DNA of 64,000 nucleotides from Acidobacteriota bacterium. GTDB taxonomy: Bacteria; Acidobacteriota; Terriglobia; Terriglobales; Acidobacteriaceae. The position numbers and the translations under genes were made by a program. Location of the stretch: the NCBI GenBank assembly GCA_021803035.1, contig JAJZME010000075.1, positions 1-64,000 on the forward strand, read 5' to 3'. How positions within the stretch are numbered: position 1 is the first letter of the stretch; every line of letters begins with the position of its first letter. Below, piece after piece: positions 34,432 through 36,813 of this stretch. Under the pieces are notes generated by a model. The model made no database searches, was not told the DNA's origin, and was given only the letters and a program-made list of their open reading frames with translations.

Positions 34432-35100
34432 CTACTCGGCGTGCAGGATGACTTCAAAGAGCAGCAGGCTGATGGTGGTGAAGATGATGTCGTAGCCGAC
34501 CAGCAGCTTGATCCACAGCGCCGGATCGCTGGAGCCGGTGATGATGGCGCTAGCAGATTGCACCATGGCCAGAAGAGCGGGCATGAAGATGGGAAAGAGA
34601 ATGAGAGGCAGCAGCAGCTCGCGGTTGCGGCTGCGGATAGAGAGCGCGGCAAAGAAGGTGCCGTTGGCGACCAGGGCCCATGTGCCGAGCGGCAGCACGA
34701 GGGCCAGCAGCCAGGCATGGCCTACGATGGTCAGGTTGTACATGACGACGAAGACCGGCGCCAGCACGATTTGAACGATGGTGACGAAGAGGAAGTTGGC
34801 GATGACCTTGGCCAGGAACATCTCCGCGCCGGGGGCCGGGGCCATGCGCTGCGCGTCGAGGACCTGATGGCGGATTTCGCGGGCCCAGGCCTGGCCGAGC
34901 GAGCTGACGGCGGCAAACATGATGGCCACGGTGAGTACGCCGCCGGCGATCTGCCGCGCGAAGGTTCCTTCGGGATCGAAGGCGAGGGAGAACAGCACCA
35001 CGACCAGCAGCGCGAAGAAGAGCATCGAGTTGATGGCCTCTTTGGAACGCCATTCAATGCGCAGGTCCTTGGCGAGATGGGTCCAGAGCGTGCTCAGCAT
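34432..35100 (-). CDS. ccmB: Heme exporter permease CcmB
   Basis: KDLRIEWRSKEAINSMLFFALLVVVLFSLAFDP...GAEMFLAKVIANFLFVTIVQIVLAPVF; adjacent ccm genes. Confidence 0.88.
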   Translation of the reverse strand: MLSTLWTHLAKDLRIEWRSKEAINSMLFFALLVVVLFSLAFDPEGTFARQIAGGVLTVAIMFAAVSSLGQAWAREIRHQVLDAQRMAPAPGAEMFLAKVIANFLFVTIVQIVLAPVFVVMYNLTIVGHAWLLALVLPLGTWALVANGTFFAALSIRSRNRELLLPLILFPIFMPALLAMVQSASAIITGSSDPALWIKLLVGYDIIFTTISLLLFEVILHAE

Positions 35101-35609
35101 GATGGGCGCTCCTGGTGCGGCGCGGCGCTTTTGGTCAGGTCGGCGGTTTCGACGGGGGCGTCGAGGGCCGCGGCGGCGCGCAGGTAGTCGTCGGGGGTGA
35201 GGATCAACTGCGTGCCGCGCGATCCGGCGGAGACACTGATGTGGTCGTAGAGGATGGCCGTTTCATCGAGGAAGACGGGGAAGGATTTCCTGGCGCCGAA
35301 GATGGTGACGCCGCCGCGGATATAGCCGGTGAGCGGCTGCACGTCTTTGAGGGGCACCATTTCGGCTTTGCGCAGGCCGGCGGCGCGGGCCAGTTTCTTG
35401 AAGTCCAGCTCGGCGTTGCCGGGGATGACGGCGAAGACGCAGGCGCCGTGGCCTCCGGTGGTCAGCAGCGTTTTGAAGACCTGCCCGGCAGGCATGCCGA
35501 TTTTTTGGGCGACCGTGGTAGCGGCGAGGTCGTCGGGATCGACTTCGTACTCGCGGAGCTCGAAGGGGATGCCGAGGGATTCAAGGAAGCGCGCGCCATT
35601 GGTCTTCAT
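35094..35609 (-). CDS. ybaK: YbaK/EbsC-type Cys-tRNA(Pro)/aminoacyl-tRNA deacylase
   Basis: TNGARFLESLGIPFELREYEVDPDDLAATTVAQKIGMPAGQVFKTLLTTG...RGGVTIFGARKSFPVFLDE. Confidence 0.9.
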   Translation of the reverse strand: MKTNGARFLESLGIPFELREYEVDPDDLAATTVAQKIGMPAGQVFKTLLTTGGHGACVFAVIPGNAELDFKKLARAAGLRKAEMVPLKDVQPLTGYIRGGVTIFGARKSFPVFLDETAILYDHISVSAGSRGTQLILTPDDYLRAAAALDAPVETADLTKSAAPHQERPSC

Positions 35610-36292
35610 AGCGTTGGATTTCCAGGTTCAAAGGATTGCACGCGGCCGGCATGGAGCGCCAGCACCCAGTCGGCGATGGGCGCGGCAAGCTCGCGCTGGT
35701 GGGTGGTGATGATGATGGTGCGGCTGGAGTGGCGGAAGCCGGACAGAAGCTTGACCATCATGTGCGCGCTCTCGATGTCCATGTTGGAAAAAGGCTCGTC
35801 GAGCAGCAGCAGTTCGGGGACGGGCAGCAGCACGCGTGCCAGCGAGGTACGCTGGCGCATGCCCTGCGAGTACTGGCCGAGGGTGCGCGGCAGATCCGGG
35901 TCCAGTCCCACCTGGCGCAGGGCTTCGGCAGGCGAAAGACAGTCGCGGCCAGGATAGAGCTTCTGGAAGTAGCGCAGGTTTTCCTGGGCGGTGAGCTCGT
36001 CGTAGAGCATGGGGGCGTGGCTCATGTAGCCGATGCGGGCGCGCACGTCCTGCGGCAGGGGCTCACCGAAGACGGCTAATGAGCCGTAGGTGGGCCGGAG
36101 CAACCCGGCCAGAATGCGCAGCAGGGTGGACTTACCGGCGCCGTTTTCGCCGATCAGCATGTAGCAGCGGCCGGTGAGGAACTCGACGGAGATCTGGCGC
36201 AGCGCGGCGAAGGATCCGAAGAGCTTGGAGACTTTATCAAAGCGGGCGCAAACCTGCGCGGAATCGCCAGCGGCGGCAGTAGGGTCGTTCAT
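35606..36292 (-). CDS. ccmA: Heme exporter ABC ATPase CcmA
   Basis: GENGAGKSTLLRILAGLLRPT, YSQGMRQRTSLARVLL, LLLDEPFSNMD; in ccm cluster. Confidence 0.85.
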   Translation of the reverse strand: MNDPTAAAGDSAQVCARFDKVSKLFGSFAALRQISVEFLTGRCYMLIGENGAGKSTLLRILAGLLRPTYGSLAVFGEPLPQDVRARIGYMSHAPMLYDELTAQENLRYFQKLYPGRDCLSPAEALRQVGLDPDLPRTLGQYSQGMRQRTSLARVLLPVPELLLLDEPFSNMDIESAHMMVKLLSGFRHSSRTIIITTHQRELAAPIADWVLALHAGRVQSFEPGNPTL

Positions 36293-36297
36293 TTTTC

Positions 36298-36813
36298 TCA
36301 GGCGGCCGGCTTTGCCAGGCTTGCGGTAGCAGCAGCGGCGCGTGTACCCGTTGCGGGCGCTGCGGCTTTACCGGGATGGAGCGGCTTGCTGGGCCCGTAC
36401 TTGCTTGCGCACTTGGCCTGGAGCAGATTGGCATGGAAGACGCCATCGCGTCCGTAAGTGCCTATGGCCAGCGCCTGCGCGTTGTCCTTGAAGGTGTCCG
36501 GCGGCGGCTCAGAGCCCTTGTAAACGACCTTGAGAAAGCGTCCTGACGCGGCTTTCGGAGAGTGGCTCTCGTATTGTTCGAGCACAAAGGTGATGTTGGG
36601 GCCGTCGGTGACAATGGAGCCGGGCTTGACAAAGCCGTCGACGCGAAGCCGCGTGGTATAGGCCTTGGCGCCCATTGCGTGGAGTTGAGGGATGGTAACG
36701 TAATAACTCTTGCCCGCGCCGTAGCCGCTGTATGCCAGCCATCCGACGGTGCCCAAGACAATAGCTGTCGCGATTCCGATACGCCAGGAACTTGTAGATT
36801 TTTTCATCACCAA
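36298..36813 (-). CDS. ccmE: Cytochrome c maturation protein CcmE, CxxxY variant
   Basis: RLRVDGFVKPGSI...FVLEQ...VVYKGSEPPPDTFKDNAQALAIGTYGRDGVFHANLLQAKCASKYGP; canonical HxxxY replaced by C-ASK-Y. Confidence 0.85.
   Translation of the reverse strand: MVMKKSTSSWRIGIATAIVLGTVGWLAYSGYGAGKSYYVTIPQLHAMGAKAYTTRLRVDGFVKPGSIVTDGPNITFVLEQYESHSPKAASGRFLKVVYKGSEPPPDTFKDNAQALAIGTYGRDGVFHANLLQAKCASKYGPSKPLHPGKAAAPATGTRAAAATASLAKPAA

Follow-up and report, generated by a model that had tools for sequence, protein, structure and literature searches.

A System I cytochrome c maturation gene set with a cysteine-type CcmE and a cysteine-rich CcmH in an Acidobacteriota genome

The window, by which we mean the whole stretch of 64,000 nucleotides that was analysed, carries four neighbouring genes on one strand: ccmE, ccmA, a YbaK-type gene and ccmB. 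The features are as follows.

36298..36813, minus strand: ccmE, 171 aa, Cys-type heme chaperone; PF03100 match, CcmE fold, the sole CcmE of the genome
36715..36792, minus strand: N-terminal helix of the CcmE membrane anchor (residues 8-33), from the secondary structure of the AlphaFold2 model
36397..36411, minus strand: CASKY motif, read directly; it runs from Cys135, where heme is expected to attach, to Tyr139, which is expected to be the axial ligand
35606..36292, minus strand: ccmA, ABC ATPase; ABC_tran 101.5 bits, TIGR01189 ccmA 125.5 bits, slightly below the cut-off of 131.6
35094..35609, minus strand: gene for a YbaK-type Cys-tRNA(Pro) deacylase, flanked by ccmA and ccmB; TIGR00011 157.1 bits, cut-off 153.25
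34432..35100, minus strand: ccmB, heme exporter permease subunit; PF03379 126.3 bits

The ccmE gene is listed with a TTG start codon and has an ATG two codons further 3'. Its product scores 70.3 bits in a Pfam profile search with PF03100, against a cut-off of 24.6. The AlphaFold2 model (pLDDT 83) consists of a single N-terminal helix and a β-barrel, with Cys135 directly past the last strand, and the best PDB matches in a fold search are all CcmE structures (8ce8_E, 1lm0, 1sr3 and 1j6q). The above-threshold domain, the membrane anchor and the OB fold of a CcmE are thus all found. What is missing from a canonical CcmE is the His of the HxxxY heme-attachment motif. The translation reads directly as HANLLQAKCASKYGP, a stretch also read as DGVFHANLLQAKCASKYGP, and its AKCASKY has Cys where the heme-binding His is usual. 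The codons of Cys135 (36409-36411) and Tyr139 (36397-36399) match the stretch pointed out in the original prediction, whose reading of CxxxY instead of HxxxY is borne out.

CASKY or CPSKY-like motifs are present in the CcmE of relatives, and in the window's family every one of the 19 typed genomes, the window's own among them, has CASKY. Since the 18 others all share it, a sequencing error at Cys135 is unlikely. Only one CcmE could be found across the whole genome (3.86 Mb, 98.5% complete), so that a second, His-type copy, against which the prediction had asked to be checked, is rejected and the Cys-type reading stands. This is a CcmE of the CxxxY type inside a System I gene set, as in archaea and Desulfovibrio, and the earlier statement that the variant was already known from those organisms is correct.

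The remaining Ccm genes lie elsewhere, with ccmC (L007:8324-9148) alone on contig C31 and ccmF adjacent to ccmH on contig C2, spreading the set over three contigs. CcmA, CcmB, CcmC and CcmF, whose joint presence marks System I (Ccm), are all encoded. Most family members have ccmA adjoining ccmE. A same-genus genome (L069) keeps ccmC within its ccmE-A-ybaK-B cluster, and the usual order outside the family is ccmE-F-H followed by ccmA-B-C; the gene set has thus been broken apart in the window's family. No match to ResB/Ccs1 was found in the genome, so System II (Ccs) is rejected as the heme route, and 16 cytochrome c domain matches indicate that substrates for maturation exist. There is one DsbD-type electron carrier. 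The CcmG model TIGR00385 picks up five thioredoxin-like proteins, all below its cut-off, so that CcmG function may be present. Among the genes that the prediction had proposed to look for, ccmC, ccmF and ccmH were therefore recovered, and ccmG only in the form of these sub-threshold matches. A third PF01578 match, on contig C82, was rejected as CcmC in view of its hemC/hemD-like neighbours and is taken to be HemX-like, by neighbourhood only.

Two further observations concern neighbouring genes. The YbaK gene overlaps ccmA and ccmB by a few bases and occupies the same position in several family members; a link to cysteine chemistry, and with it a putative part in cytochrome maturation, is tempting but unsupported. 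An ORF for an exported or membrane protein lies 3' of ccmH (L006:1-1095, minus strand), where it is cut by the contig end, and an ORF with a similar start is also found 3' of ccmH in the same-genus relative L129.

The CcmH encoded directly after ccmF matches PF03918 with 62.6 bits (cut-off 25). Its motif region reads LMCTCGCAELLGECDNPGC, with LMCTCGC and no LRCxxC redox motif, and on this sequence evidence it is a real but non-canonical CcmH. Five cysteines are invariant among 25 aligned sequences of the same CxC class. In the AlphaFold2 model of one class member, from a relative (pLDDT 88.5), they fall in a confident loop past the first periplasmic helix, which sequence alignment to solved CcmH places at the position of LRCxxC. 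The best PDB matches of this model are the solved CcmH structures 2hl7 and 2kw0, with probabilities of 0.98-1.00 and weak E-values (0.06-0.11). An above-threshold PF03918 domain is accordingly accompanied by a CcmH fold, the latter from the relative's model. Further, CcmF and a Cys-rich CcmH form one polypeptide in ten ORFs of about 820-950 aa from several Acidobacteriota families (L094:4330-6810, L101, L109, L111, L116, L119, L123, L125, L157 and L281). CcmF spans approximately residues 1-645 and CcmH 698-795 in most of them, Pfam confirming one, and these fusions tie the Cys-rich CcmH to the synthase.

Motif conservation was assessed in a sample of 297 genomes of the phylum Acidobacteriota, 181 of them with CcmE and 142 with CcmH. 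It is to this phylum that named relatives and the adjacent genomes of the CcmF tree point. Among the 98 genomes typed by CcmE motif, 77 (41 families) are Cys-type and 21 (five families) His-type, and 41 of the 46 families have the Cys-type, which is thus the norm in the phylum. All 21 His-type genomes carry a textbook RCxxC[QA] CcmH, as does E. coli; none of the 60 Cys-type genomes with a readable CcmH does. A CxCxC-rich CcmH, with a CxCxC...C...C loop, is present in 52 of these 60, four of which also carry a second, different CcmH. Seven have only a PCC-form CcmH, and the last (G069) has a spaced Cys-rich variant missed by the search pattern. G261 contains RCPVCQ, but downstream of a CxCGC motif, and was not counted as canonical. 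In some Cys-type Acidobacteriota genomes no CcmH match was found. The PCC form, often APCCW, accompanies Cys-type CcmE in Latescibacterota, Gemmatimonadota and several Acidobacteriota families (L304, L305, L307, L063-L068, L154, L159 and L164).

A scan of named genomes for Cys-type CcmE gave 80 loci in many phyla. CcmH was nearby in 46 of them and in no case canonical, and a whole-genome follow-up of 32 named Cys-type genomes found CcmH in 21. Two exceptions to the pairing were seen, both outside Acidobacteriota. The delta-proteobacterial MAG G303 has a single CcmE, of Cys-type, with a canonical LRCPVCQ CcmH beside a CcmG-like gene on a 3.4-kb contig, and a Cys-rich CcmH elsewhere in the genome. 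The Chloroflexi MAG G308 has two Cys-type CcmE and a plain CxxC CcmH (LQCPICAG). These cases caution against a strict pairing rule. Desulfovibrio-type genomes gave no CcmH match, in agreement with published accounts; together with the CcmH-less genomes of the phylum, this indicates that the Cys-rich CcmH is not obligatory for a Cys-type CcmE. It appears instead to be a regular, though not invariable, companion.

Much of this can be set against earlier work. Cys-type CcmE, though little studied, has been described in archaea and some bacteria, with delta-proteobacteria, Chloroflexi and Firmicutes listed and CPSKY the commonest motif, and with the Desulfovibrio operon it has been shown to function in E. 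coli (PMC3601427). According to the same review, around a third of bacteria with Cys-type CcmE contain CcmH, so that Cys-type CcmE with CcmH is already known, and absence of CcmH is no longer treated as characteristic of System I*. Also known are cysteine-rich CcmH proteins without LRCxxC, beside ccmF in Cys-type CcmE genomes of Archaeoglobales such as Geoglobus and Ferroglobus (PMC4600277). There, however, the motif is LX[S,N]C[E,D,H]C, and the account covers three archaea only, with no claim of a general companion of Cys-type CcmE. Our genome resembles System I* (Allen 2006 and Goddard 2010, as cited in PMC3601427) in its CxxxY CcmE, its CcmA, CcmB, CcmC and CcmF, and its want of a His-type CcmE. 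It differs in that CcmH, absent from System I* in the sense of Allen 2006, is present and cysteine-rich, in having CASKY rather than the commoner CPSKY, and in that CcmG appears only as sub-threshold thioredoxin matches. With the canonical System I of E. coli (CcmABCDEFGH) it shares core components, folds and the expected order of heme transfer, but Cys replaces His in CcmE, CxCxC...C...C stands against LRCPKCQ (E. coli, read here) in CcmH, and the genes are scattered. We found no literature account of Acidobacteriota in the context of Cys-type CcmE, nor an experiment on any member of the phylum; nor was a general pairing with Cys-rich CcmH found, in a search that was thin on subscription papers. 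Exact-phrase searches for a CcmF-CcmH fusion returned nothing, which is weak evidence of absence.

With the gene set, motifs, folds, association and CcmF-CcmH fusions observed here, we consider it probable that the genome encodes a complete Cys-type System I, in which heme would pass from CcmABC to Cys135 of CcmE and on to CcmF-CcmH, the Cys-rich loop of CcmH replacing the LRCxxC pair. By analogy with studied homologues, CcmABC would load heme onto CcmE. Experiments in Methanosarcina and Desulfovibrio suggest that Cys135 would then hold it, with Tyr139 as axial ligand. In M. acetivorans, attachment of heme to CcmE depends on the Cys (PMC9084895), and in D. desulfuricans the bond between CcmE and heme is covalent (PMC3601427). 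Non-covalent binding is reported for D. vulgaris (PMC3884852), and we therefore allow for either a covalent bond or a thiolate at Cys135. As in System I generally, the CcmF-CcmH synthase would receive the heme from CcmE and attach it to CXXCH apocytochromes. CcmH is predicted to keep its fold and to present the loop, with the five cysteines invariant in the class, in place of the LRCxxC thiol pair. We infer that this loop most likely does thiol or metal chemistry in the attachment step, and it may stand in for the CcmG/CcmH thiol pair or help to free heme from CcmE.

The original prediction had supposed a variant maturation pathway in which the usual CcmH is missing, and had itself named a CcmH as what would speak against this. 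The variant part stands, as a Cys-type System I; the missing CcmH does not, since a PF03918 CcmH, if a non-canonical one, lies beside ccmF on C2, and by the prediction's own reckoning the CcmH-less pathway is refuted. A Desulfovibrio-like System I* could still be argued for if the CcmH-like protein were an unrelated cysteine-rich membrane protein, given the Cys-type CcmE, the missing LRCxxC and the relatives without a CcmH match. We give this little credence, as the protein scores 62.6 bits against 25 directly after ccmF, and the class it belongs to shows the CcmH fold and occurs elsewhere as a fusion with CcmF. That CcmE is degenerate or inactive, with another heme route in use, is highly improbable: no point in its favour was found, the motif and surrounding fold are kept throughout the family, and the genome has cytochrome c proteins and no ResB.

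How the association itself arose is a separate matter. A CcmF tree built quickly from 137 rows has His-type and Cys-type as the two sides of one branch, with a single change (support 78), and a check for coupling along this tree yielded one independent pair only, too few independent switches. Given this one deep split, what the association captures is a pair of System I subtypes, and taken alone it is no proof of coupling; a family-level Fisher value ignores shared ancestry and was not counted as evidence. We put at about even the chance that shared ancestry is the whole explanation, two old System I lineages having different, functionally unlinked motifs. The two exceptions beyond the phylum (G303 and G308) also speak for this. 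It is compatible with a complete Cys-type System I in the window's genome, since it concerns the association only. Against it, the two lineages are found within a single phylum, ccmE is separated from ccmFH in the window's family, and no swap of CcmE and CcmH motifs was seen in the 81 sampled phylum genomes with both typed; that none was seen although the genes are scattered hints at coupling of the motifs. A bolder reading, which we regard as rather doubtful, makes Cys-type CcmE and Cys-rich CcmH one functional unit of a distinct and widespread System I subtype, in which the CcmH cysteines, as a metal knuckle or thiol relay on CcmF, would free heme from the CcmE Cys and replace CcmG.

The preferred reading, a complete Cys-type System I, corrects the expectation that a Cys-type CcmE implies a missing CcmH. 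What is added to earlier accounts is the Cys-rich CcmH as a regular partner of Cys-type CcmE across many bacterial groups, which is open to test. This is of practical use when cytochrome maturation is annotated, in Acidobacteriota as in other groups, where a search for LRCxxC would miss the CcmH. How the normally very stable cysteine-heme thioether is released during transfer from CcmE is a stated puzzle (PMC3601427), and if the Cys-rich CcmH is the matching half of the Cys-type CcmE, that question would become testable.
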